Below are positions 32,912 to 46,272 of a stretch of 64,000 bases of DNA, piece by piece. Source of the DNA: Gordonibacter massiliensis (ex Traore et al. 2017) (lineage in GTDB: Bacteria; Actinomycetota; Coriobacteriia; Coriobacteriales; Eggerthellaceae); the NCBI GenBank assembly GCA_900170005.1, contig LT827128.1, positions 2,104,168 to 2,168,167 on the forward strand, in the 5' to 3' direction. The position numbers and the translations under genes were made by a program. Below the pieces are notes generated by a model. The model had not been told where the DNA came from, searched no databases, and worked only from the letters and a program-made list of their open reading frames with translations. Every line of letters begins with the position of its first letter. Within the stretch, counting starts at the first letter, position 1.

Positions 32912-33526
32912 ATGGACAACAACTACACGTCACCGGGTTTCAACACCAAGATGAAGATCGTCGAAGCTCTGGACGCGCTATCGCAAGAAACCTCGTTCGA
33001 ACAGGTGAGCATCCTGCAGATATGCGAGAGGGCCGACATTTCCCGTTCGACGTTCTACCATCACTTCTGTGACAAGAACGCCGTCTTGCAATGGCACTCC
33101 AGCATCGTGTACGAAGCCGGCGTCGACCAGATAGGCCGCACGCTCACCTGGTTCGAAGGCCATTTGCTCACCACGCGCGGGCTCGAGCGCTATCGCAGCC
33201 TCTACTACCGTGCGGGATACTCGAACGAATACGGCGGCGTCAAGCCGTTCTTCGTTCGCCACCACGTCGACACGCTGCGGGAAACCCTGACGGAGTACCA
33301 GAAAAAGGAGCTGACGCCCCTGCTGGATTTCCAGATACGCGCAACCGCAGCCGCAGAGTCCTCCATGGCGAACCTGCGGTACGCAGGCGAGCTGACGCTG
33401 TCGACGAAGGAGTTCTGCACCTATCTGGTGAGCATCGTCCCCCGAGAGCTGTTCGAGGCCCTGCAGGAGCCGGTGACTCCGCGCGGCGACGAGCGGCCGC
33501 CGTTTTTCCTCGGCGCCGTCTGGTAA
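32912..33526 (+). CDS. TetR-family regulator, paralogue 1
   Basis: A 204-residue protein. The N-terminal helix-turn-helix reads KMKIVEALDALSQETSFEQV, then LQICERADISRSTFYHHFCD, the TetR recognition region. The C-terminal ligand/dimer domain has the segment DQIGRTLTWFEGHLLTTRGL, which is closely matched in the second TetR at 48319 (DQTGRTLTWFEGHMNTTNGF); PFF-RH and LTEY are also shared. Both flank molybdoenzyme modules, so they probably sense related phenolic or other small substrates and control the nearby enzyme and carrier genes. ATG 32912 follows AGGGAG. Confidence 0.88.
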   Translation: MDNNYTSPGFNTKMKIVEALDALSQETSFEQVSILQICERADISRSTFYHHFCDKNAVLQWHSSIVYEAGVDQIGRTLTWFEGHLLTTRGLERYRSLYYRAGYSNEYGGVKPFFVRHHVDTLRETLTEYQKKELTPLLDFQIRATAAAESSMANLRYAGELTLSTKEFCTYLVSIVPRELFEALQEPVTPRGDERPPFFLGAVW

Positions 33527-33742: not shown

Positions 33743-34819
33743 CTACGCCTGGGCCGCCGCCTTCTTCGCGGCGAGCTCCGCGGCCTTCTCCTTGACGAGC
33801 TCGGTCAGGTCGGCCTTGCAGAACTGGCAGCGGATGGAACCCGCCTCGGCGTTCGTGTTCACCTTCTTGCCGCACGAAGGGCACACGACGGCGAAGTTCG
33901 CCGTGGCGGGGGCGACCGTCTTCATCGATGCGCGCATCTCCGTCCATTTCAGCTCGGCGGCCGCGCGCTGCGCACGCGCTGTCTCGGCGGCCGAAGGATA
34001 GGCGCTGCGATCGCCGGAGAACTCCAGCTCGATGTCGCCCACGAACCGGTCGATCTCGCGCACGTCGGTCTGCACCGTCTTGTCGGCGTACCCGTCAGCG
34101 GAAAGGTCGATGCGGTAAACGTCGGCCTCCACCTGGTCGAACTTGAAATCGCCGAAGTCGTCCGTCGTCGTTTCGAGCGTCTTGCCGTCGGAGCCGGTCA
34201 GCTTCACCTCCGCACCGACGACCACTTCCTCCACCTCGGGGTCGAACACGAGGCCGGCCACGAAGCGCTTCGGGTAGTTCAGGTAATACACGCGCGGCCC
34301 GGCGCCGTCGAGCTCGGAGAGCGTGGTGGCCTCGTTCAGGTCGACCTCGCTTTCCTCGACGTAGCGCAGCGCCTCCGTCGGGCAGGCGTCCACGCAGCGC
34401 GGCACGTCCCAACCGTTGTCCAGCAGATGGGCGCAACCGGTGCATTTCTGCGGCAGGTAGAGCTCCTCGTTGTAGTACACGGCGCCCACCGGACATGCGT
34501 CGGCTATCTCGCGCTTGCCCTTCGCCTTCTCGGGGTCGATGATCACCAGGCCGTCCTCGCGGCGGTGCACCGCGTCCGGCGCGGCCTTCATGCAGGCGGC
34601 GTCCTCGCAGTGGTTGCACATCCAGGGGATGTAGGACAGGCGCACCACGGGAACCTGGCCGCGCTCCTTCTCCTTCACCTTCATCCAGAACTGGCCCGTG
34701 AGCGGCTGCGCTTCGGCATAGGGGGGCCACGCCTGGTTGCAGTGCTCGTCCTTGCAGGCCACCTGGCAGTTATGGCAGCCGTTGCACTTGTCTATATCGA
34801 CGACGAATACCTTGCTCAT
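33743..34819 (-). CDS. Transhydroxylase-like beta subunit: ferredoxin, Cna B-like domain and zinc ribbon
   Basis: A 358-residue protein. Residues 1-195 are a DmsB-type ferredoxin with three 4Fe-4S groups: CNGCHNCQVACKDEH, CNHCEDAACMKAAP...CPVGAVYY, and CTGCAHLL...CVDACPTEAL. Residues about 200-290 form a Cna B-like beta domain (VVGAEVKLTGSDGKTLETTT, DVYRIDLSADGYADKTV), the layout described for the small subunit of pyrogallol-phloroglucinol transhydroxylase. The C-terminus adds a zinc ribbon (VCPSCGKKVN...RCQFCKADL) and a Lys/Ala helix. It follows the catalytic subunit by two bases on the same strand. ATG 34819 has AAGGAG upstream. It has no signal peptide, so the complex is cytoplasmic. Confidence 0.88.
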   Translation of the reverse strand: MSKVFVVDIDKCNGCHNCQVACKDEHCNQAWPPYAEAQPLTGQFWMKVKEKERGQVPVVRLSYIPWMCNHCEDAACMKAAPDAVHRREDGLVIIDPEKAKGKREIADACPVGAVYYNEELYLPQKCTGCAHLLDNGWDVPRCVDACPTEALRYVEESEVDLNEATTLSELDGAGPRVYYLNYPKRFVAGLVFDPEVEEVVVGAEVKLTGSDGKTLETTTDDFGDFKFDQVEADVYRIDLSADGYADKTVQTDVREIDRFVGDIELEFSGDRSAYPSAAETARAQRAAAELKWTEMRASMKTVAPATANFAVVCPSCGKKVNTNAEAGSIRCQFCKADLTELVKEKAAELAAKKAAAQA

Positions 34820-34821
34820 CT

Positions 34822-37431
34822 CTACTCTCCTTTTACCAGGTACGCTTCGGGGATGTGCCCCGTCGCAGGGTCGTAGTCGCGCGCGAACTCCTCGGGGTAC
34901 CGCTGCGCCAGCTCGAGGACGTCCACCTTCGCCACGTTCACCAGGAAGCTGTTGGTCACCTCGCCCGCGCAGTTCTCGGACGTGGTCTCGGGGGTGCAGA
35001 TGAGGTTGTTCGCGCCGCCGCGGTCCAGGCCCTTGCGGCCGCCGACGATGGCGTCGACGCGCGCGCCGTGGTCCTGGTACAGCACGCCGGGACGGATGCG
35101 CTCGGTCACATGCGCGGCGCCGAGCACCGTGCCGCGCTCGTTGTACAGCTTCACCACGTCGTGGTGCTCGATGCCCAAGCGCTTCGCGTCCACCGGATTG
35201 ATCCACACGGGCTCGTACTTGTAGCCGTCGGGGCCGGTTATCTTGCAGGTGTCGATCTCACGCAGCCACGGCACGTCGTCGAGGTTCGCGTGCACGCGCC
35301 AACGCGGGTGGTTCGACATGAGCGGGAACGGGTAGTCCTGGGCGCGGTCGGACGTGACGCGCTCGTGGTGCCGATCGGTCTCCTCGATCCACTGCGGATA
35401 GGGGGCGCGCACCTTGTCGTCGGGGAAGTACGAGGCCAGCACCGTGGAGTAGTACTCGAGCTTGCCCGTCGGCGTGTCCAAGGGGTTGCCCTCGGGGTCG
35501 TCGTGGAAGGCTATGAGGCCGGCCGGCTCGTCCTCCCAACCCTCGATCACCGGCGAGCACCAGAAGCGCTGCTCCTTGAGCTCCTCGTAGGTGATGCGGT
35601 CGGCGATGCCGCTGTCCTCGAAGCCCTTGCGCAGAACCGCCTCGCAGTCCATACCACCCGTGTAGCGCTCGACCAGGTTCTCGTAGGCACCGCCGTACTG
35701 CTCCAGCTTGCGCGCGACCTCGCACACCGTCTCGAACTCCGACTTGGCCTCGCCCACGCGGTCGACAGCCTGCTCCTCGAGGTAGAGCATGGCAGTCTGG
35801 CCGTTGTAGTTGTCGCCGCTCAGGTCGGGGCATTCCATCATGGTGGCCGTGGGCATGATGATGTCGGCGAACAGCGTGTCGTTCTCCATCCAAGGATGCT
35901 GCATGACGAGGCACTCGACGTTCGGCGAGCGCAGCGCCTCTTCGAACTCGAAGCCGCCGTTCCAGCACGTCGACCAGCATGGCGCGTCCGACCAGATCAT
36001 CTTCACGCCCTCGTTGCCGGGCAGGGGGAACTGGAACTTCTCCAGCTGGTCCTCCTTCGGGTAGCCGGCCGCCGTATGGCCGTACCACTCGACCGGCGGG
36101 TTCATGATGGCCTGCGGAAGCTTCGTCTTCACGATGAACGACTTGCCCATGTCCATGTCGAAGCCGTGGTAGGCGCTCTCGGTGCTGGGGTAGATCTCGC
36201 TGCGCGGAACGGGGCTCTTGCTGGGAAGGCCGAACAGCGTCCACTCGATGAACTGGAACTGGTTCGCGCCGGGCTTGCCGAGCGACTGCATGCCGAGCAG
36301 CGCCACCTCCAAGCGGGCCGGTTCGTGCGAGAAGCACGAGCGGATGTACCCGCCGCCGTTGCAGTGTCCGATGGACACGTTCGACTTCGCCCAGTAGCGC
36401 GCCAGCGCCTTGATGGTGTACGCCTTGACGCCGCACTTCTCCTCGGCCCACTTCGGGGTCTTCGGCGTGCCGTCTTCGAGGTTGCCCAGCACGTACTGCG
36501 CGAACCAGTCGAAGCCGTCGGCATGGGTGGCGATGTAATCTTTGTCGTAAAGGTCTTCCGTCAGCCACACGTAGGCGATGGCAAGCTGCAGGGCGGCGTC
36601 GGTGTTGGGGATGACGGGGATCCACTTGTCGGCGTGCACCGCGTTCGTGTAGTTCACGTCGGGGCAGATGAAGATGGACTTCACGCCGATCTCGTTGAAC
36701 CAGTAGCACATGCGCGAGGGCAGCTGGCCGCCCCAGCCCCACGGCGTGGTCTCGGGGTCCGCGCCCCAGTACAGCACCGCGTCGCCGTGCTCGGTGATGT
36801 CCTTGAACACGCCGTTCTGGTACACGTTCTGGCCCACCGGGTCCATGCCCCAGATCCACTTGGCGCCCCAGTACCAGCCTTCCCAGCTGTCGGCGTTGCG
36901 CGCCTGGATCGTGCAGCCGCCCACCATGTTGAGCAGCGAGATCTGGCAGCCGTGCGAGCCGCCGTAGTTCTTGGCCTCGCCGTGGCCCTCGCCCTGGCAG
37001 TAGATCGAGTAGGGGCCGTACGCGTCGTGGACGCGCTTGATCTCGGCGGCGACCAGGCTGGTGGCCTCGTCCCAGCTGATGCGCTCGTACTTCGAGATGC
37101 CGCGGTTCTGCGGGTTGCGCTCGCCGTTCGGATCCCAGTCCACGCGCTTCAGGGGATAGGGTATGCGGTTCGGCGAATAGGTGCGCGTCTTGTAGGCCAG
37201 GCTGATGGGTGGAAGCAGGGTCTTGAACCCCGGGTCGAACACGCGCCCGTCCTTCTCGAGCGACCACATGCGCAGCTCTTCGCGCGTGTAGTGCTCGTCG
37301 AAGTGCACCGGCCTGATGCGGACGACCTTTCCGTCCTTGACGTCGACGTCGGCGGCGTTCGACGACAATCCGAACCCGCAGAAGCCAAGGCTCTTCGTCG
37401 TCGTCCTATCGGCGATGGTGACCTTTGCCAT
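34822..37431 (-). CDS. Transhydroxylase-like molybdopterin oxidoreductase, catalytic alpha subunit
   Basis: An 869-residue enzyme of the DMSO-reductase superfamily that resembles the pyrogallol hydroxytransferase large subunit along its length: IPYPLKRVDWDPNGERNP, YERISWDEAT, ARNADSWEGWYWGA, DPETTPWGW and HPRWRVHANLDDVPW. His150 and Asp181 align by eye with the catalytic His and Asp reported for transhydroxylase. The N-terminus has a single Cys (GFCGFG), so it cannot bind the usual 4Fe-4S cluster, also as in transhydroxylase. There is no Tat signal. Catechol dehydroxylases of gut Eggerthellaceae belong to this broad group, so dehydroxylation of a phenolic compound is possible. It is followed by its beta subunit and preceded by an MFS gene. 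Confidence 0.85.
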   Translation of the reverse strand: MAKVTIADRTTTKSLGFCGFGLSSNAADVDVKDGKVVRIRPVHFDEHYTREELRMWSLEKDGRVFDPGFKTLLPPISLAYKTRTYSPNRIPYPLKRVDWDPNGERNPQNRGISKYERISWDEATSLVAAEIKRVHDAYGPYSIYCQGEGHGEAKNYGGSHGCQISLLNMVGGCTIQARNADSWEGWYWGAKWIWGMDPVGQNVYQNGVFKDITEHGDAVLYWGADPETTPWGWGGQLPSRMCYWFNEIGVKSIFICPDVNYTNAVHADKWIPVIPNTDAALQLAIAYVWLTEDLYDKDYIATHADGFDWFAQYVLGNLEDGTPKTPKWAEEKCGVKAYTIKALARYWAKSNVSIGHCNGGGYIRSCFSHEPARLEVALLGMQSLGKPGANQFQFIEWTLFGLPSKSPVPRSEIYPSTESAYHGFDMDMGKSFIVKTKLPQAIMNPPVEWYGHTAAGYPKEDQLEKFQFPLPGNEGVKMIWSDAPCWSTCWNGGFEFEEALRSPNVECLVMQHPWMENDTLFADIIMPTATMMECPDLSGDNYNGQTAMLYLEEQAVDRVGEAKSEFETVCEVARKLEQYGGAYENLVERYTGGMDCEAVLRKGFEDSGIADRITYEELKEQRFWCSPVIEGWEDEPAGLIAFHDDPEGNPLDTPTGKLEYYSTVLASYFPDDKVRAPYPQWIEETDRHHERVTSDRAQDYPFPLMSNHPRWRVHANLDDVPWLREIDTCKITGPDGYKYEPVWINPVDAKRLGIEHHDVVKLYNERGTVLGAAHVTERIRPGVLYQDHGARVDAIVGGRKGLDRGGANNLICTPETTSENCAGEVTNSFLVNVAKVDVLELAQRYPEEFARDYDPATGHIPEAYLVKGE

Positions 37432-37546: not shown

Positions 37547-38797
37547 CTATGCGGCTGTGCTGAGCGTGTCCGAATCCCCCTGATCGGCGAGCTGTTGGTG
37601 TATCTTGCCCTTGGCGCCCAGCTCGGGGGTGACGAGCATGACGACGCCACCCGCGATGACGCAAACGGAGAGGCAGACGAAGAACATGACCATGTTGCCG
37701 CCGCACAGCGGGGTGATGATGAACGACGGGATGATGAACGCGGCCAGGTTCTGGAAGAAGGTCTGGATGCCGCCCGCCGTGCCCATGTACTCGGGCTTGA
37801 TCGACGGGATGAGGCCGACGCAACCCTTGATGAGGGCGACGTTGCCCCAAGACACGAAGCAGCCGATGATGATCAGCGGCAGCGTGGCACCGCTCAGGGG
37901 CATAGCCCAACCGGCGATCAATAGCGCGTTGCCCACGAACACGCCGATGCACAGAACCGGCTTGATGCGCCCGATCTTGTCAGCCAAGGGGCCCATGATC
38001 CAGTTGGACGGCATGCCCACCAGGTTGATGAACGAAGCCCAGACGGCGGCCGTGACAGGGTCGAGGCCCTTGCCGATCAAGCCGCTGGGAACGTTGCCGG
38101 AATAGGCGGCCGACGCGCACATGGAAAGGACCATGGCCAGGCTGACGGCCAGCAGCAGCTTGTTGCCCAAGACGGACTTGACGGCCTTCATGCTGTACTC
38201 GTCCTTCTCGAACACGGCGTTCTTCGGCATGCGGGCGAACGCGAACCACACGACGGTGGCCACCAGGTAGATGATGCCGGTCACCACGAACATCTGGTTG
38301 ACGTCCTGGATGACGGAGGCCAGGGCCATGCAGGCCGTCACGCCGATGCCGGCGCCGGAGACGTACAACGTCATGGCGGTGGTGACCTGGCGGATGCCGA
38401 ACCAGGCGCGCAGGAACTTGACGGAGTTGGCGTTCATGCCCGCCAAACCCAGGCCCATGCCGAAGCAGCAGATGTAGACGCCCCAGAACGACGTCATGAA
38501 AATCCTCGCCACGGCGAAGCACAACGACAGGAACATGCCGATGCCCATGATCTTCGTGACGCCGAACTTGTCCGCCAGGATGCCCATGGGAATGGAGAAG
38601 AGGGCGCCCGTCAGAAAGCCGATCATCGTCAGCTGGACGAACTCTCCCTGGGTCGCCCCCATCTCCCCCATGAACGTCCCGGAATAGGCGCCGACCACCG
38701 TCAGCGAGCCCATCAGGCACGCATGCATCAAACCGATGCAGACGACCATGAGCCACCGCTTGGGCGACCGGTACTGCAGTTCTTTGTTTTCGTTCAT
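37547..38797 (-). CDS. MFS transporter of the transhydroxylase-like module
   Basis: A 416-residue carrier with about twelve helices. The first half has the loop motif GILADKFGVTKIMGIG and the second half the copy GPLADKIGRIKPVLCIG. The segments VGAYSGTFMGEMGATQGEFV and SVKFLRAWFGIRQVTTAMTL are typical of anion/small-acid carriers of the OFA/NNP-like type. It lies 115 bases upstream of the alpha subunit on the same strand, so it probably imports the substrate or exchanges substrate and product. ATG 38797 has a perfect AAGGAGG. Confidence 0.85.
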   Translation of the reverse strand: MNENKELQYRSPKRWLMVVCIGLMHACLMGSLTVVGAYSGTFMGEMGATQGEFVQLTMIGFLTGALFSIPMGILADKFGVTKIMGIGMFLSLCFAVARIFMTSFWGVYICCFGMGLGLAGMNANSVKFLRAWFGIRQVTTAMTLYVSGAGIGVTACMALASVIQDVNQMFVVTGIIYLVATVVWFAFARMPKNAVFEKDEYSMKAVKSVLGNKLLLAVSLAMVLSMCASAAYSGNVPSGLIGKGLDPVTAAVWASFINLVGMPSNWIMGPLADKIGRIKPVLCIGVFVGNALLIAGWAMPLSGATLPLIIIGCFVSWGNVALIKGCVGLIPSIKPEYMGTAGGIQTFFQNLAAFIIPSFIITPLCGGNMVMFFVCLSVCVIAGGVVMLVTPELGAKGKIHQQLADQGDSDTLSTAA

Positions 38798-39086: not shown

Positions 39087-39440
39087 TTAGTCCACCGGAG
39101 CCCACAGAACCTGCTTCGGCTTCCGAGCCAGCTCCGCCGCCATCTCCTCGACGGTGCCGAAGCGCATGCAGTCGCCCAGGCAGTTGTGCACGCACACGGG
39201 CTCGCGGCCGTCTTCCACGCGGCTCGCGCACAGGTCGCACAGGTCGGTGGGCACGGGTATCTTGTTCCAGTTGAAGCAGCTGCCCTCGTCCTTGGCGTCG
39301 TCCTTCTGCCAGGGACCCTCGTCCAGCACGCGGATGCCCCACTTGCCCACGGGGAAGTTATGCTCCTCCTTGCAGGCCACCTCGCAGGACTGGCAGCCCG
39401 TGCAGTACTCGTAGTCGATCAAAAGCGCGTATTTAGGCAT
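39087..39440 (-). CDS. Short two-cluster ferredoxin of module 2
   Basis: A 117-residue protein: CTGCQSCEVACKEEHNFPVG at residues 13-32 and CDLCASRVEDGREPVCVHNC followed by LGDC, enough for two 4Fe-4S clusters. It is shorter than DmsB-type subunits, which carry four. It matches the ferredoxin at 43666 along its length (GKWGIRVLDEGPW versus GKWGIKVTEDGPW). It is two bases downstream of the C-terminal fragment of the catalytic subunit and should be its electron donor. ATG 39440. Confidence 0.88.
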   Translation of the reverse strand: MPKYALLIDYEYCTGCQSCEVACKEEHNFPVGKWGIRVLDEGPWQKDDAKDEGSCFNWNKIPVPTDLCDLCASRVEDGREPVCVHNCLGDCMRFGTVEEMAAELARKPKQVLWAPVD

Positions 39441-39442
39441 GG

Positions 39443-39691
39443 TTACACCAGCTTTCCAAACTTCTCGGCGAACGCGTTCATGTCCACGTCGTAGCTCTCC
39501 TTCAGGGGAACGACGTTGCAGCAGGCGCTCTTGTAGGGGGCGCCGAATCCGAGCGCATTGTTGTGGTGCATGGGCACCAGGTCGTTGCAGTTCGACTGCC
39601 ACACGCCGAACAGGCTGGGCTCGCTGCCGTCCTGCTCGGGGAACCACCACCCGTGGTCGGCCTCCACGTGGCCCTGCTTGATGGTGGGCAT
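39443..39691 (-). pseudogene. Detached C-terminal end of the module 2 molybdopterin oxidoreductase
   Basis: Eighty-two residues starting MPTIKQGHVEADHGWWFPEQ and ending SYDVDMNAFAEKFGKLV. They align with the C-terminus of the paralogue at 44014 (VVHAHHGWWFPEQDGEEPNL, then LGFGNTFKCQICN). The fragment is in the same frame as the gene at 39701: the stop TAG (39701-39703) is followed directly by GCC CGC CTC ATG. It has no ribosome site of its own. It is therefore the end of that gene, cut off by a single nonsense codon, unless the codon is read through. Confidence 0.85.
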
Positions 39692-39700
39692 GAGGCGGGC

Positions 39701-41923
39701 CTAGACCTGGGCGTTGCGGAGCATGTACTCGATCGCGGAGCACTGGCCGTCGGCCAGGCCCAACCGCGCGGCGTCGGCGGGGTTGATCTCCGGCATGGGG
39801 TTCGGGTCGATCTCGCGCAGCACGGCGATCTGGCGGTGCTCGCTATGGAACGACGAGTAGCGGCGGTGCCCCGTGGACAGGATGAACGGGTACTTCTCGA
39901 TGATCTCCTCGTGGGACAGGTCGCGCTCGTGCCACTTCGCGTCCAGCTCGTCGGAGATGCGGGGGTTCTTCTTGAGGTTCAAGTCCTCGGCCGTCTTTTC
40001 GGGGATGCGCGGACTCAAGTCCGGCTCGTAGTAGTACGGCAGCGGGTCCATGCCGTTGTCGTTGTACTGCGACGACCACAGCTCCACGCGCCCCGTGGGC
40101 GTGAGGAAGCCGGGCTGGCCGTCGGGGCGCAGCTTGCCCGTCTCGTACTTGCGATAGTAGACGGCGCGCTTGAATTTGACGAGCTGCTTCACGTCCTCGA
40201 AGTCGTGGCGGCCCTCCAGGCGGTTCTTGTTCAGGTAGTCGTGGTAGTCGGGGTACTTCTCGTGCGCGAAGCAGGCCTTGGGGTCGTCGGGGAACATCGC
40301 GGCCATGCGCTCGGCCAGCAGGCAGTATATCTCCAGGTCGCACTTTGCCTCGCCCACGGTGACGGCCTTGTTGCCGCAGCCGGTGGTGATGGAGGCCGCG
40401 CCGTAGTGCGTGCGGTTCACGCCGTCGTGCTCGGCGACGGTGGTAATGGGCAGGAACACATCGCACACCGCCTGGATGGTGGGCGTGATGAAGCAGTCGG
40501 TGCCGAAGGCGAACTCGATGGACTTCACCATGGCGGCATGCCAGCGGGTGGGCTCGGCGGAGTTCGTGGGGGCGATGAGGTTGCTGTTGGCAACCCATGC
40601 CATGCGAACGGGATAGGGCTCTTCCGTTTCGAGCGCATCGAGCACGCAATCGGCCTGGGCGCCCGTGATCTGGTTGCAGTACAGCGGGTACTTGTCCATG
40701 CCGAGCGCCTTGCCGCGCTCTTCCTCGGTCATCTGGTACCAGCCCTCGGTGATGAACGAGCGAGTGTCGTTGAAGTCCTCGGCACCGCCCGCAGCCGCTT
40801 CGCTCGTCAGGTCCTCCGGCATGGCCAGGTCGGCCACCACGTTGCCGCCCGGCACATCGAGGTTGCCCGTCAGGCAGATCATGCTCAACACGCAGTGCCC
40901 CGCCTCCCTGCCTTTCGTGTTCTGGTCGAACGCCAGGCCCCAGGCGATGGACGCCGGCTTGGCGGCGGCGTACATGCGCGCCACGCGGTAGATGTCCTCG
41001 ACGGGGATCTCGCATATCTTGGCGGCGTTTTCCGGCGTCATGTAGGCCACGCGCTCGGCGAACTCGTCGAAGCCGTAGCACCAGCGCTCCACGAAGTCGT
41101 GGTCGTACAGGTCCTCGGAGATGATGATGTTGCACATGGCCATGGCCAGCGCCGCGTCGGTGCCGTTGCGCAGGCGCAGCTGCACTTCGGAGCGGGTTGC
41201 CAGCCAGTTCACGCGCGGGTCGATGGTCACGAGCTTCGCGCCGCGCTTCATGAGGTCGATGACGGCGTGGCCGAACATGCCGTCCGGGTTGGACGCCAGG
41301 GGCATCTTACCCCACAGGATCATGAGCTCGGGCACCTGGTACTGCGGGTCGTCGTAGCCTCCGGGAAGACCGCCGGCGTAGTCGAGCTCGGGGTACAGCG
41401 CGCCCAGCACCATGTTCGAGGCCGTCATGCGCGGCTGGTAACAGGCGTAGCCCGACTGCGTGTACGCCAGGTTCGGCGTGCGGAAGATGCTCAGCTGGAA
41501 GTCCTGCGACAGCATGCCGTCGCGCCCGGTGCCCACGAAGATGACCATGGTCTCGCGGCCGTACTGCTCGGTCAGGCGCTTCCAGTTGTCCATGATGAGG
41601 TCGAGCGCCTCGTCCCAGCTGCAGCGCTCCCAAGCGTCGGCGTTGCCGCGCTCCTCCTTCGCGCGTTTCATGGGATAGATGACGCGCGTCGGGTTGTAGA
41701 TGTAGTCCTTCAGCGCCAGGCACCGCGGGCACAGGCGGCCGTGCGTGATCGGGTCGTTCTCGTCGCCCTCGACGTGGTCCAGGCGGCCGTCCTCGTCCAC
41801 GTAGAGCTTGATGCCGCACCCGACCGGATGGCACCCCGGAGGCGACCACACCGATGATCGCACGACGGTGAAGTCACCGTCTTGGAACTTCCACGGCTTG
41901 CCTAGATCGTTTTTGAATTCCAT
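39701..41923 (-). CDS. Dehydroxylase-like molybdopterin oxidoreductase, interrupted by in-frame UAG (module 2)
   Basis: A 740-residue frame carrying nearly all of a DMSO-reductase-superfamily catalytic subunit. N-terminal cysteines PPGCHPVGCGI...LCPRCLALKD would bind a 4Fe-4S cluster. Further landmarks are SWDEALDLIMDNWKR, MVIFVGTGRDGML, LMILWGKMPLASNPDGMFGH, KLVTIDPRVNWLATRSEV and SFHSEHRQIAVLREIDPNP. It is paralogous to the subunit at 44014 throughout, and closest to catechol dehydroxylase/acetylene hydratase-like enzymes. It has no Tat signal. It stops at TAG 39701, about 80 residues early; the missing end follows in frame. ATG 41923 has GAGGAGG. The partner ferredoxin is at 39087. The dwarfed product may lack the last cofactor-binding strands. 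Confidence 0.85.
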   Translation of the reverse strand: MEFKNDLGKPWKFQDGDFTVVRSSVWSPPGCHPVGCGIKLYVDEDGRLDHVEGDENDPITHGRLCPRCLALKDYIYNPTRVIYPMKRAKEERGNADAWERCSWDEALDLIMDNWKRLTEQYGRETMVIFVGTGRDGMLSQDFQLSIFRTPNLAYTQSGYACYQPRMTASNMVLGALYPELDYAGGLPGGYDDPQYQVPELMILWGKMPLASNPDGMFGHAVIDLMKRGAKLVTIDPRVNWLATRSEVQLRLRNGTDAALAMAMCNIIISEDLYDHDFVERWCYGFDEFAERVAYMTPENAAKICEIPVEDIYRVARMYAAAKPASIAWGLAFDQNTKGREAGHCVLSMICLTGNLDVPGGNVVADLAMPEDLTSEAAAGGAEDFNDTRSFITEGWYQMTEEERGKALGMDKYPLYCNQITGAQADCVLDALETEEPYPVRMAWVANSNLIAPTNSAEPTRWHAAMVKSIEFAFGTDCFITPTIQAVCDVFLPITTVAEHDGVNRTHYGAASITTGCGNKAVTVGEAKCDLEIYCLLAERMAAMFPDDPKACFAHEKYPDYHDYLNKNRLEGRHDFEDVKQLVKFKRAVYYRKYETGKLRPDGQPGFLTPTGRVELWSSQYNDNGMDPLPYYYEPDLSPRIPEKTAEDLNLKKNPRISDELDAKWHERDLSHEEIIEKYPFILSTGHRRYSSFHSEHRQIAVLREIDPNPMPEINPADAARLGLADGQCSAIEYMLRNAQV

Positions 41924-42285: not shown

Positions 42286-43557
42286 TTACTCCAAAGCGGC
42301 CGCAGCGGTTTCGTCCTCCGCGACCGGAAGGCCCGCATCGGCTCCGTCATCGCGCTTCATCATAAGACCCTTCAAAGGCAGGACCAGGCCGAGCACCGCG
42401 CACACGGCGCATACGACACCGCAGGTCAAGAATGCGGACGACTGGCCGAACGCCGGAATCGCAGCAGCCGAAGCGGCGTACATATAGGGAGCGAAGAACG
42501 GCCCCAGGTTCATCATGGATGTCATCACGCCGCTCACGAACGGAACGCGCGAAACCGGCGTGATGTTGCCTGCTGCATTCTGCGAAGCGTTGAAGAAGCT
42601 CGATCCGCCGATGCCGATAATGAACACGCCGACGCCGTACATGATGGCACTGTCGGCAAGGAAGCACGGGATCATGCCGATCGCCACCAGCGCCGCGCAG
42701 AACGCGAAAATGTACTTCTTGAGCAGGCGCACCATATAAGGCAAGATGATGCTCGACACGATGATGCCGACGCCGCAGCAAGAGATGATGAGCCCCGCGA
42801 TGCTCGAATCGCCCAGAGCGCGCTCGGACAAAACGGTGGAGCACAGCAGCTGCACCGTCACGAGGCCGATCCATACCATCAAGCCGTATACCGCATATCC
42901 CCAGATACCATGCGGAACCTTCTCTTTAACCTGATTTCGAGACGCTTGGGCCGCCCGGTCCGCAGCGACGATCCCCTTGGCTTCCGGCATGAACAGGATG
43001 ATCGCCACCAGCGGGACAAAGGCGATCAGATACGTCAGAAACGAATAGTTCCATGCGATCTCGGTCAGATTTCCAGCCACGATGGTGTAGAGGATGGAGA
43101 ACACGAACTGGCACACCATGCCCAAACCGAGCAACCTCGTTCGCATCTCACCGTCGAAGAACGCAATGATGGAGGCGGCTCCGACCGGGAACATGATGCC
43201 CAAGCCTATGCCGACGCCGATGCGCGATCCGATGACGAGCGTGTAGTCGGTCATATCGGGCATAAGGAACGGGAACGCTCCGCTTAACGTCATGATTACG
43301 ATGCCCACGATGGCTGCCGGCCTGAAGCCTATTCGATGCAAGACGGCGCCAGACGCGATGCTCACCGGAACCGAGACGATGCCGGTGATGCTGTTGGCCA
43401 GCATGATGGTGGTCATATCCGTGTTCTGGAAATGAGCGGCAAACGCGGCGATCGACGGCGTGAGGATGGTGAATTCGCTCATGGTGCAAAAGATCGCCAA
43501 GATGCCGATTATTACCAAAACAGGAGACTTGCCGTTGAACTTATCGGTAGCTTGCAT
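42286..43557 (-). CDS. MFS transporter of module 3
   Basis: A 423-residue carrier with about twelve helices: FTILTPSIAAFAAHFQNTD in helix 1-loop, SIASGAVLHRIGFRPAAIVG as the loop-2 motif, and MFPVGAASIIAFF. A cytoplasmic loop (KGIVAADRAAQASRNQVKEK) divides the halves. It resembles the multidrug/organic-acid groups of MFS but no substrate can be assigned. ATG 43557 with AAAGGGG is preferred over TTG 43575. It lies downstream of the ferredoxin and enzyme genes on the same strand, 108 bases away, with a terminator at its end, so it closes the module 3 operon. Confidence 0.87.
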   Translation of the reverse strand: MQATDKFNGKSPVLVIIGILAIFCTMSEFTILTPSIAAFAAHFQNTDMTTIMLANSITGIVSVPVSIASGAVLHRIGFRPAAIVGIVIMTLSGAFPFLMPDMTDYTLVIGSRIGVGIGLGIMFPVGAASIIAFFDGEMRTRLLGLGMVCQFVFSILYTIVAGNLTEIAWNYSFLTYLIAFVPLVAIILFMPEAKGIVAADRAAQASRNQVKEKVPHGIWGYAVYGLMVWIGLVTVQLLCSTVLSERALGDSSIAGLIISCCGVGIIVSSIILPYMVRLLKKYIFAFCAALVAIGMIPCFLADSAIMYGVGVFIIGIGGSSFFNASQNAAGNITPVSRVPFVSGVMTSMMNLGPFFAPYMYAASAAAIPAFGQSSAFLTCGVVCAVCAVLGLVLPLKGLMMKRDDGADAGLPVAEDETAAAALE

Positions 43558-43665
43558 ACGGTTTCCCCTTTTCAATTAGGCGCCGCCCGCCCTGCGCGGC
43601 CGTTCGGCCACGCAGGGCGTCGCAGATCCGGGCGGCGCGTTCAGATAATGCGCGCAACGGCTGCC

Positions 43666-43998
43666 CTACGGCAGGAAGATGACCGCCTTTTCCCCTATCT
43701 CATCGGCGGCCTTCGCCAGCTCCTCGATGCTGCCGTAGCGCATGACCTTCGCCTGGCAGTGCTGCACGCATGAGGGCTCTTTGCCTTGGGCGACGCGATC
43801 GGCGCACAAGTCGCAGATCTCGGTCGGCACGGGCAGGCAATCCCAGTGCCACGATCCGTCGGGAAGCTTCCATGGACCGTCCTCGGTCACTTTGATTCCC
43901 CATTTGCCCAGCGGCACGTCATGCTCGTTCTTGCAGGCGATCTCGCACGAATGGCAGCCGGAGCAGTACTTGTAGTTGATCAGCAAACCGTTTTTCAT
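43666..43998 (-). CDS. Short two-cluster ferredoxin of module 3
   Basis: A 110-residue protein: CSGCHSCEIACKNEHDVPLG at residues 12-31 and CDLCADRVAQGKEPSCVQHC further on, sufficient for two 4Fe-4S clusters. It is a close paralogue of the ferredoxin at 39087. It begins at ATG 43998, 15 bases after the enzyme stop, with GGGAGG upstream, so it is the electron-transfer partner of the enzyme at 44014. Confidence 0.9.
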   Translation of the reverse strand: MKNGLLINYKYCSGCHSCEIACKNEHDVPLGKWGIKVTEDGPWKLPDGSWHWDCLPVPTEICDLCADRVAQGKEPSCVQHCQAKVMRYGSIEELAKAADEIGEKAVIFLP

Positions 43999-44013: not shown

Positions 44014-46272
44014 CTATTCGTCCGTGACCTTGTAGATGTTGCAGATCTGACACTTGAAGGTATTGCCGAAGCCCAGCTTGCCGATGACCTTGTGCGGCAT
44101 GATCATGTTGATGTTGGACTGGCGGAAACCGAACAGATTGGGCTCCTCGCCGTCCTGCTCCGGGAACCACCAGCCGTGATGGGCATGCACCACGCGTTCG
44201 TCGAGGCCCTCGGTGAGGTGAGCGACCTGTTTGACGCGGCCGTTCTGGTTCTCGATCCACACCCAGTCTCCCTCGGCAATGCCGAGCCTCTCCGCCGCCG
44301 CAGGGTTGATCTCGACCGTGGGTTGCGGGTCGATCTCGCGCAAACGGTCTATCTGACGATGCTCGGAATGGAACGACGTGTACTTGCGACCGCCGGTCGT
44401 GAGCACGAACGGGTACTGCTCGAACAGCTCCGGCGTCGAATAGGGGCTGAAGGGGGGTTCCTGGAAATAGGGCAGCGGATCGTCGCCGAACTGCTGGTAG
44501 GCGGTCGACCACAGCTCCACGCGACCGGTCTGCGTCATGTACCCCGGCTGACCGTCGAAGCGCATGAGGCCCTTCTCGCATTTGCGGTAAACCTCTTCGG
44601 GTTGCACGACCACGTCCTCGCGCAGTTCCTCCCACGTCATGTCGCCCGGGACCTCGACCTGGGTCATGTAGTCCTCGATGCTCGCGAACTGCTTCCAATA
44701 CTCGGGGAACATGCGCTCGCCGATCTTCATCATGAACTCGAGATCGCTCACGCCCTCGACCACGTCGACCGCCTTGTTGCACGAGCCTTCGAACGCCACG
44801 TTGAACCCATAGTGCGACTCGACCAGCGTGTTGTGCTCGGCAAACGTCTTGAGCGGAATGACCAAGTCGCACAGAGCCATGGTGGTGGGGTTCTGGAACA
44901 GCTCGGTGGCGGCGCAGAACTCGAAGCTCGACTTCATGGCCTGCAACCAGCGCTCCTGCGCGGCCGTGATGGCGCCGCCCACCAGGTTCGAGCTCTGGAA
45001 CACGCCCATGCGTAGCCGGTAGGGCTCCTGCGTCTCGAGCGTATCGAGCACCGAATCAGGATGGTTCGTGGACATGAGCTGGCAGACGAAGGGGAACTCC
45101 GCGGCGCCGATGCGCTTTTCGAACAGCTCCGGCGTCACCGTGCCCGCCTCCATGGCCCGGTTGATCATGTCGACGTTCGTGTCGTCTTCGATGGGCAGGC
45201 CCAGCGTGTTGCCGCCGGGAACGTCCAGGTTGTCGGTGATGGCCATGAGCGACAGCAGCGCCTGGCCCACCTGGATGCCGTTGGGGTTCTGGTCCACGGA
45301 AAGGCCCCAGCCGATGGCGCTGTGCTTGCTCGTAGCGTACTTGCGGGCGGCCTCGACGATAAGATCCTCGTCCACCCAGCAGATCTCGGCAACCTTCGAC
45401 GGCGGGTACTCCTTCACGCGCTCGGCAAGCTCGTCGAAGCCGTAGCACCACTTGTCCACCGCCTCGTGGTCGTACAGATCCTCGGTGATGACTACGTTGA
45501 GCAGGCCCAGCGCAAGCGCCGCATCGGTGCCGGGACGCAGTTGCAGGTTGATTTCCGCACGGGTCCCCAGCCAGGTGATGCGCGGATCGACGCAGATGAG
45601 CTTCGTGCCGTAGTCCTTCATCATGTCGATGACCGCATGCCCCCACAGACCGTCGGCGTTCGACTTCAGCGGCTCCTTGCCCCAGAGCATGATGTACTTG
45701 GGCGCTTCCCAACCGGGATGATCGTAGCGGTCGGCGTAGCGAGCCGCGTAATCGATCTCAGGGTAACCGCCGCCCATGAGGTAGGCCATCGACGAGACGC
45801 GGGGCGCGTAGCAGGCCCAGCCGCTTTGCGCGTAGCAGGCGTTCGGCGTGCCGAATCCCATGAACGCCAGCTCGTTGTGGTACTTGGTGGCCTCGCGACC
45901 CGTTCCGCAGAACACGACGATGGACTCGGGGCCGTACGTCTCGGAGAAGTAACGGGTTTTCTCTTCAAGCAGATCGAACGCCTCGTCGAGCGTGATGCGC
46001 TCCCACTTGTCCTTGCCGCGATCTTTGGGATCGCGCTTCAGAGGGTACATGATGCGATCCTTGTGGTACATCACGTCCTTGAGCGCCAGGCACCGCGGGC
46101 ACAGCGCGCCCTTCGTGATCGGATGCTCGGGATCGCCCTCGACCTCGACGACCTTGCCGTCTTTGACATGCAGCTGGATGCCGCACCCCACCGGATGGCA
46201 CCCCGGGGGCGACCAAGCGCAGGTTCGAACGATGGTCTCACCGTTCTCTTCGCGTTTCCATGGCTTGCCCAT
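44014..46272 (-). CDS. Dehydroxylase-like molybdopterin oxidoreductase (module 3), intact
   Basis: A 752-residue catalytic subunit paralogous to the interrupted one at 39701. The 4Fe-4S motif is SPPGCHPVGCGI...LCPRCLALKD near residues 22-65. Cofactor-site landmarks are IVVFCGTGREATKYHNELAF, YIMLWGKEPLKSNADGLWGH, KLICVDPRITWLGTRAEI, GWGLSVDQNPNG and, at the C-terminus, HAHHGWWFPEQDG. It lacks a Tat signal, so it works in the cytoplasm with the ferredoxin encoded just downstream. The group includes acetylene hydratase-like and catechol dehydroxylase enzymes; reductive removal of a hydroxyl group from a phenolic substrate is a reasonable guess, not shown. ATG 46272 follows GGGAAG. A longer frame upstream lacks homology. 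Confidence 0.9.
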   Translation of the reverse strand: MGKPWKREENGETIVRTCAWSPPGCHPVGCGIQLHVKDGKVVEVEGDPEHPITKGALCPRCLALKDVMYHKDRIMYPLKRDPKDRGKDKWERITLDEAFDLLEEKTRYFSETYGPESIVVFCGTGREATKYHNELAFMGFGTPNACYAQSGWACYAPRVSSMAYLMGGGYPEIDYAARYADRYDHPGWEAPKYIMLWGKEPLKSNADGLWGHAVIDMMKDYGTKLICVDPRITWLGTRAEINLQLRPGTDAALALGLLNVVITEDLYDHEAVDKWCYGFDELAERVKEYPPSKVAEICWVDEDLIVEAARKYATSKHSAIGWGLSVDQNPNGIQVGQALLSLMAITDNLDVPGGNTLGLPIEDDTNVDMINRAMEAGTVTPELFEKRIGAAEFPFVCQLMSTNHPDSVLDTLETQEPYRLRMGVFQSSNLVGGAITAAQERWLQAMKSSFEFCAATELFQNPTTMALCDLVIPLKTFAEHNTLVESHYGFNVAFEGSCNKAVDVVEGVSDLEFMMKIGERMFPEYWKQFASIEDYMTQVEVPGDMTWEELREDVVVQPEEVYRKCEKGLMRFDGQPGYMTQTGRVELWSTAYQQFGDDPLPYFQEPPFSPYSTPELFEQYPFVLTTGGRKYTSFHSEHRQIDRLREIDPQPTVEINPAAAERLGIAEGDWVWIENQNGRVKQVAHLTEGLDERVVHAHHGWWFPEQDGEEPNLFGFRQSNINMIMPHKVIGKLGFGNTFKCQICNIYKVTDE

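Follow-up and report, generated by a model that had tools for sequence, protein, structure and literature searches.

The closest described relative of the genes considered here is PgtLS/AthLS, the pyrogallol-phloroglucinol transhydroxylase or pyrogallol hydroxytransferase of Pelobacter acidigallici (PDB 4v4c), a molybdenum (Mo) enzyme whose large and small subunits are PgtL and PgtS. The catechol dehydroxylase class lies nearest acetylene hydratase and apart from PgtL (PMC7028382); its Gordonibacter-type members (Dodh, Cldh, Gp Hcdh, Eldh and Eadh) have two subunits, no twin-arginine signal and an adjacent MFS transporter gene. Two further systems can be compared by description: the resorcinol hydroxylase RhL, which acts on a phenol and is related to PgtL, with Ser coordination (PMC10100899), and the corticoid 21-dehydroxylase cluster Elen_2451-2454 of the same bacterial family as the present genome, which pairs a Mo oxidoreductase with a 4Fe-4S protein, removes a hydroxyl and has FdhD and an SPFH protein as neighbors (PMC11835702). 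We analyzed a 64,000-nucleotide stretch of Gordonibacter massiliensis (contig LT827128.1, positions 2,104,168 to 2,168,167; hereafter the window), in which two adjacent genes, here called alpha and beta, resemble PgtLS. What is new is the repeated placement of this PgtL-sister pair beside catechol-dehydroxylase-type (Cdh) genes.

Alpha (34822..37431, minus strand; 869 aa, ATG at 37431) encodes a molybdopterin catalytic subunit, and beta (33743..34819, minus strand; 358 aa) begins at an ATG (34819) directly behind the alpha stop. The two are a genuine gene pair, and a GTG at 35206 in the list of open reading frames is unlikely as a gene start. The top PDB sequence match of alpha is the pyrogallol hydroxytransferase large subunit, 4v4c_A (418 bits, compared with 208 bits for DMSO reductase and 42 bits for acetylene hydratase), and a profile of 11 members of the alpha clade (see below) matches the same chain with 607 bits over residues 14-868. 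The resemblance along the full length of alpha, claimed in the original prediction from the letters alone, is thereby borne out. The top PDB match of beta is the PgtLS small subunit (186 bits). Comparison of the predicted structures with the transhydroxylase structure, which the prediction had proposed as a check, places 4v4c first in Foldseek for both subunits (large subunit, E 2e-75; small subunit, TM 0.86 on the target). The alpha model leans to the PgtL fold because 33 of the 36 rows of the alignment from which it was built are PgtL-side; it is poor at 397-427, the expected site of the Tyr404 loop, and uninformative on side-chain positions.

The domain layout agrees with this assignment. 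Alpha matches AhtL-like_1st above the Pfam cut-off, with no Molybdop_Fe4S4 match reported in the Pfam scan, consistent with the single-Cys N-terminus ascribed to it originally. Beta can be divided into a three-cluster ferredoxin (residues ~1-160), in which the 12 cysteines at the positions of three [4Fe-4S] clusters are all present, a second domain (residues ~185-264) that is CarboxypepD_reg by Pfam and CnaB/transthyretin-like by Foldseek, a long helix, and a C-terminal zinc ribbon. The ferredoxin plus Cna B-like arrangement is as predicted.

The G. massiliensis genome, a single 3.95-Mb contig that is 99.8% complete, contains six genes of the same clade, namely the query, four genes with 55-62% identity and one with 44-45%. 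Across the class, 53 of 396 genomes match alpha at E 1e-60 or better, one of them (G026) with a match only 36% identical that was left out of the tree. When named genomes were scanned with PgtL as the first row, 80 loci emerged, Eubacterium oxidoreducens included. After removal of three open reading frames, L130 and L102 (partial) and L051 (overlong), a FastTree analysis of 93 rows (all 57 of the clade; 34 from the PgtL side, namely 33 of 84 plus the PDB chain; and two S/N-oxide reductases) placed the window alpha within a clade supported at 100, adjacent to a PgtL-side clade that is likewise supported at 100. The clade and PgtL-side rows are those used for the column counts below. The identical split, with support 100 and 99, came from a mixture-model tree built on 32 of the 93 rows. 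A score gap among the first 64 loci (at least 647 bits versus at most 146 bits) separates the clade from other Mo enzymes. Nearly all clade rows (55/57) come from Coriobacteriia, a bias that reflects sampling, this class being the main sampling ground for the clade; the others belong to metagenome-assembled genomes (MAGs) of a digester Actinomycetota (L134) and a Desulfamplus (L174). A tblastn search of plasmids returned distant relatives only (best 32% identical), two of which group with the PgtL side. We found no described function for the PgtL-like clade of these bacteria in the searchable literature, which covers few subscription journals; among the matches listed for Coriobacteriia, Eggerthella and Adlercreutzia, pyrogallol hydroxytransferase is named only in PMC11887054, as an outgroup. 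Judged by its sequences, the clade is a genuine and clearly bounded sister group of PgtL that is expanded in Coriobacteriia.

In PgtL, we take Ser175 to be the Mo ligand and likewise presume active-site roles for His144, Asp174, Tyr404, Tyr152 and Tyr560. Alpha His150, Asp181 and Ser182 align with PgtL His144, Asp174 and Ser175, so that the matching His/Asp positions noticed at the outset are confirmed, and the three residues are invariant across the 57 clade rows (on the PgtL side they occur in 34, 32 and 34 of 34 rows). His144 and Asp174 are not kept in the two outgroup rows, which are S/N-oxide reductases. A tyrosine occupies the Tyr404, Tyr152 and Tyr560 columns in 33, 34 and 34 of the 34 PgtL-side rows, compared with 0 of 57 clade rows in each column: Tyr152 is replaced by Gly, Ala or Thr, Tyr560 falls in a gap, and the FPGYAEGG loop is unrecognizable, the alignment near Tyr404 being uncertain (a gap in one alignment, varied residues in another). 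More than 90% of the clade rows lack PgtL segments 408-425, 559-568, 661-665 and 672-677, and at 16 columns the clade and the PgtL side are each fixed for a different residue. Alpha probably shares its Mo chemistry with PgtL, but not its pocket.

Could the substrate be non-phenolic altogether? The S/N-oxide reductases are the next relatives of the clade, and VIA-align of the alpha model leaves TorA and PgtL tied (Z 37.2 vs 36.9). In Eggerthella and Gordonibacter, corticoids lose their 21-hydroxyl through a Mo enzyme (PMC11574389 and PMC11835702), and some clade paralogues adjoin citrate/dicarboxylate-type transporters or VOC, ADH and SDR genes. A reductase of an alpha-hydroxyketone or of an S- or N-oxide would fit these points, but we consider it quite unlikely: alpha groups with PgtL and not with the S/N-oxide reductases (support 100), it keeps the His144 and Asp174 that the outgroup rows lack, and it is paired with catechol-dehydroxylase-type genes.

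Alpha/beta share with PgtLS the Ser ligand, the His144/Asp174 pair and a three-cluster beta with a CnaB-like domain. They differ from it in belonging to a sister clade, in having no Tyr at 404, 152 and 560, in missing the four PgtL segments, in the extra zinc ribbon of beta, and in genomic setting, since the complete G. massiliensis genome has no match to BKACE or Cyclase at E 0.001. The sister-clade position, the lost tyrosines and the lack of BKACE and Cyclase led us to reject the identification of alpha/beta as a pyrogallol transhydroxylase, an identity that is not supported. In L134, a PgtL gene is clustered with BKACE, SDR, 3HCDH and Cyclase genes in a phloroglucinol-type cluster, where a clade pair is found too; going by this cluster, the dihydrophloroglucinol cyclohydrolase would be a Cyclase-family protein. 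Because the G. massiliensis genome lacks BKACE and Cyclase, phloroglucinol would be a dead end there by an L134-type route. The loci in which a clade alpha/beta adjoins a PgtL-side enzyme are L134 (11175-14562), L174 (4918-8345) and L131, the last with its alpha truncated by the contig end; they lie in three MAGs of different phyla.

The main rival explanation is a redox-neutral hydroxyl transfer on the substrate ring that would, for example, turn a resorcinol pattern into a catechol one, from which a neighboring catechol-dehydroxylase-type enzyme (CdhA2, below) could then remove the shifted hydroxyl. PgtL is redox-neutral, its Ser and His/Asp are kept in alpha, and a clade pair stands beside a PgtL-side enzyme in 3 of the 80 PgtL-fetched loci. 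However, the tyrosines and four segments of PgtL are missing, and six clade genes in one genome, together with the pairing with reductive enzymes, suit a reduction better; we regard hydroxyl transfer as unlikely.

The original prediction had not seen the catechol-dehydroxylase-type genes beside the pair. CdhA2 (44014..46272, minus strand; 752 aa), a catalytic subunit of the Gordonibacter-type catechol dehydroxylase kind, ranks closest to acetylene hydratase (280 bits, versus 46 bits for PgtL) and adjoins CdhB2 (43666..43998, minus strand), a 110-aa 4Fe-4S protein; the CdhA/CdhB class is assigned by PDB ranking and layout, and the named catechol dehydroxylases are likened by description. Alpha/beta resemble the same dehydroxylases in having two subunits, no twin-arginine signal (no RR at the alpha N-terminus, judged by eye) and an adjacent MFS gene, and this two-subunit, MFS-linked layout had prompted the idea that they are themselves a Gordonibacter-type catechol dehydroxylase. 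The idea was rejected: alpha is nearest PgtL (418 bits; acetylene hydratase, 42 bits) whereas CdhA2 is nearest acetylene hydratase, beta has 358 aa rather than ~110 aa, and the 647/146-bit gap also opposes it.

We examined 24 loci of the clade, six from the G. massiliensis genome and 18 that were picked by hand among the class-wide alpha matches (a non-random set in which L094 and several others are short contigs). In 8 of the 24 (L021, L024, L026 [the window], L092, L093, L095, L105 and L108), Cdh genes share the strand of the pair and are separated from it by no more than one gene, and three further loci have a Cdh gene inside the fetched flank (L099, L103 and L106), giving 11 of 24 in total. 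The order CdhA, CdhB, 0 or 1 gene, alpha, beta is found in six of the eight same-strand loci. Within the G. massiliensis genome, three of the six clade genes are at most 2.5 kb from a Cdh gene, where 7.1% is expected at random (binomial P 0.006; 2/6 at 1.5 kb, P 0.045; 3/6 at 5 kb, P 0.014). Class-wide, a Cdh match occurs in 52 of the 53 genomes with an alpha match and in 17 of the 343 without, a contrast confounded by shared descent and by the scoring of only the two best candidates per genome in the alpha and Cdh searches; a few of these 69 genomes (G210, G300, G327, G358 and G368) have a weak best Cdh match of 32-35% identity.

The partners also changed in step. CdhA2 is 95% identical to its partner in L092 (genome G001) and 76% identical to the partial partner in L093 (genome G351, of another family-level group), and alpha is 93% and 76% identical to its counterparts in the same two genomes; by these identities, CdhA2 and alpha diverged together. 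The cassette Cdh genes as a whole are dispersed on a 46-row Cdh tree (8 label changes, compared with a shuffled mean of 12, the CdhA1 gene of the window being entered twice), so that a single clade of cassette Cdh partners was rejected and the pairing arose more than once.

The zinc ribbon at the beta C-terminus (33806..33895, minus strand; residues 309-338) has a CxxC...CxxC motif formed by Cys313, Cys316, Cys331 and Cys334 and is predicted to form a beta-hairpin, with a mean pLDDT of 89. A motif test detects it in the window, in L092 and in L093, which makes 3 of 47 clade betas, and in 0 of 72 PgtS-type betas; the test counted 46 clade betas, two with the ribbon, and the window beta, which fell outside the length limit, was added. 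The ribbon is thus an addition relative to the transhydroxylase, as first proposed, and rare in the clade. The alphas of the three ribbon loci are 76-100% identical and a CdhA2 counterpart is kept in each, so the ribbon marks the window-type cassette. A role in docking or regulation is a guess.

Our preferred reading, held tentatively and at a little less than an even chance, is that alpha/beta are a cytoplasmic, reductive, polyphenol-dehydroxylating Mo enzyme that works sequentially with CdhA2/CdhB2 on one polyphenol. It draws on a closest solved relative that acts on polyhydroxybenzenes, on the Ser/His/Asp residues kept in 57/57 rows and the kept cluster cysteines, on the Cdh linkage, its repeated origin and the matched divergence, on published cases of colocalized dehydroxylases (below), and on the lack of BKACE and Cyclase. 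The position of the pair next to catechol-dehydroxylase-type genes suggests that the two enzymes act together on plant polyphenols. In the scheme that follows, we infer the reaction direction, the substrate, the order of steps and the roles of transporter and regulator. The MFS transporter would move the polyphenol, and electrons would reach a Mo held by Ser182 by way of the [4Fe-4S] clusters of beta. Mo(IV) would take up an aromatic hydroxyl, His150 and Asp181 serving as acid/base, and this hydroxyl would be one beyond the reach of catechol chemistry; CdhA2 would remove a different, catecholic hydroxyl, before or after alpha/beta. As for the original prediction, which is partly supported, its superfamily placement is right and dehydroxylation of a polyhydroxylated aromatic is still the best reaction class, while identity with the transhydroxylase is not supported.

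Several observations weigh against this reading. PgtL, the nearest characterized relative, is redox-neutral, and the function proposed for alpha/beta derives from sequence. Within the window, alpha/beta and CdhA2 are not immediate neighbors, a stop-bearing Cdh set and an MFS gene intervening. G306 and a second G351 contig carry relatives of CdhA2 at 74% identity, with no copy of the pair listed on the same contig among the two best candidates scored per genome. No Cdh gene is found in the fetched flank of 13 of the 24 loci, three of the six G. massiliensis genes among them, some of these loci being short contigs. The placement test ignores the clustering of Mo-enzyme genes, and the loci were picked by hand. 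With a cut-off of 286 bits, 34 CdhA-type genes can be counted in the genome, many of them clustered (over 30 such genes have been reported in Gordonibacter; PMC12771579). These last figures and the 13 loci are what one might expect if alpha/beta and the Cdh enzymes have similar broad chemistry and no joint action, Mo-enzyme genes merely gathering in islands. Against such an explanation, the order CdhA-CdhB-(0 or 1 gene)-alpha-beta is kept in six loci and the window orthologues show matched divergence, and we judge it unlikely. An oxidative hydroxylase like RhL would run in the opposite direction to a reductive dehydroxylase; RhL is a Ser-coordinated PgtL relative (PMC10100899), but the pairing with reductive enzymes and a likeness to RhL drawn by description only make this highly improbable.

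Upstream of alpha is an MFS transporter gene (37547..38797, minus strand; start at 38797 by comparison with L092, open frame from 38944), and a TetR-type regulator gene is divergent from beta (32912..33526, plus strand; start by comparison with L092, open frame from 32852). Counterparts of the regulator adjoin the pair in L092 and L093. The gene order in genome G001 is TetR, beta, alpha, MFS, CdhB, CdhA; compared with that locus (L092), the window has further genes between the MFS gene and CdhB2. They are CdhB1 (39087..39440, minus strand), a ~117-aa 4Fe-4S protein adjoining CdhA1; CdhA1 (39443..41923, minus strand), a second Cdh-type gene with an in-frame TAG at 39701-39703; and a second MFS transporter gene (42286..43575, minus strand), between CdhA1 and CdhB2. 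The CdhA1 frame continues open past the TAG to 39443, and a stop-free copy, 96% identical, lies at ~2.76 Mb of the same genome; the residues right before the TAG diverge strongly from that copy. Membership of the pair in an ellagic-acid (eam) cluster was rejected: the three amidohydrolase-2 matches of the genome are at 0.67, 0.73 and 2.44 Mb, the nearest ~268 kb from the window, the eam locus itself not being pinpointed.

Colocalized dehydroxylases acting on one molecule have been described for (+)-Eldh1/2, which are 74% identical (PMC11887054), and for Eadh1/2 (PMC12771579). At ~3.61 Mb of the G. massiliensis genome, two adjacent Cdh-type genes (L035, 3171-5747 and 6256-8571) are 76% identical and may be the (+)-Eldh1/2 locus. 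Elsewhere in the genome (126384-127337) a Mo-enzyme frame contains a single in-frame TGA and may encode a formate dehydrogenase with selenocysteine.

The neighbors of the paralogues vary, including citrate/dicarboxylate-type transporters, LysR- or LuxR-type regulators and VOC/ADH/SDR genes, as expected if each paralogue acts on a different compound. Paralogues are followed by citrate/sodium-sulfate-type transporters in L021, L022, L099, L101-L104 and L107-L109, which suggests anionic substrates. One regulator (L022:4810-6108) combines LysR-type and LuxR-type helix-turn-helix domains. L025 (~1.1 Mb; 44-45% identity), the most divergent of the clade genes in this genome, is unlike the others in its neighbors, which are a two-component system, VOC, MFS, zinc ADH and SDR genes (names partly by eye).

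A catechol is reported to be essential for the catechol dehydroxylases of gut Coriobacteriia (PMC12771579), so these enzymes alone would stop at pyrogallol- and resorcinol-type rings. It is possible, if doubtful, that the PgtL-sister family is a second, unrecognized class of polyphenol hydroxyl-editing Mo enzyme in gut Coriobacteriia, forming two-enzyme cassettes with catechol dehydroxylases that strip such rings. If so, its members would be the first candidates for orphan non-catechol dehydroxylations, such as the 5-/3-dehydroxylation of dihydroresveratrol to lunularin and 4-hydroxydibenzyl. The species behind the sequential dehydroxylation of stilbenes and dibenzyls were reportedly still to be found in 2022 (PMC9449969), and a 2025 review calls the microbiota responsible for these metabotypes unclear (PMC12147749). 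The 2022 paper (PMC9449969) also reports, citing another study, that Gordonibacter urolithinfaciens and Ellagibacter did not dehydroxylate resveratrol, so Gordonibacter need not be the resveratrol actor. Research on the catechol dehydroxylases of gut Coriobacteriia is intense, and the PgtL-sister family would offer named candidate genes for the non-catechol steps.

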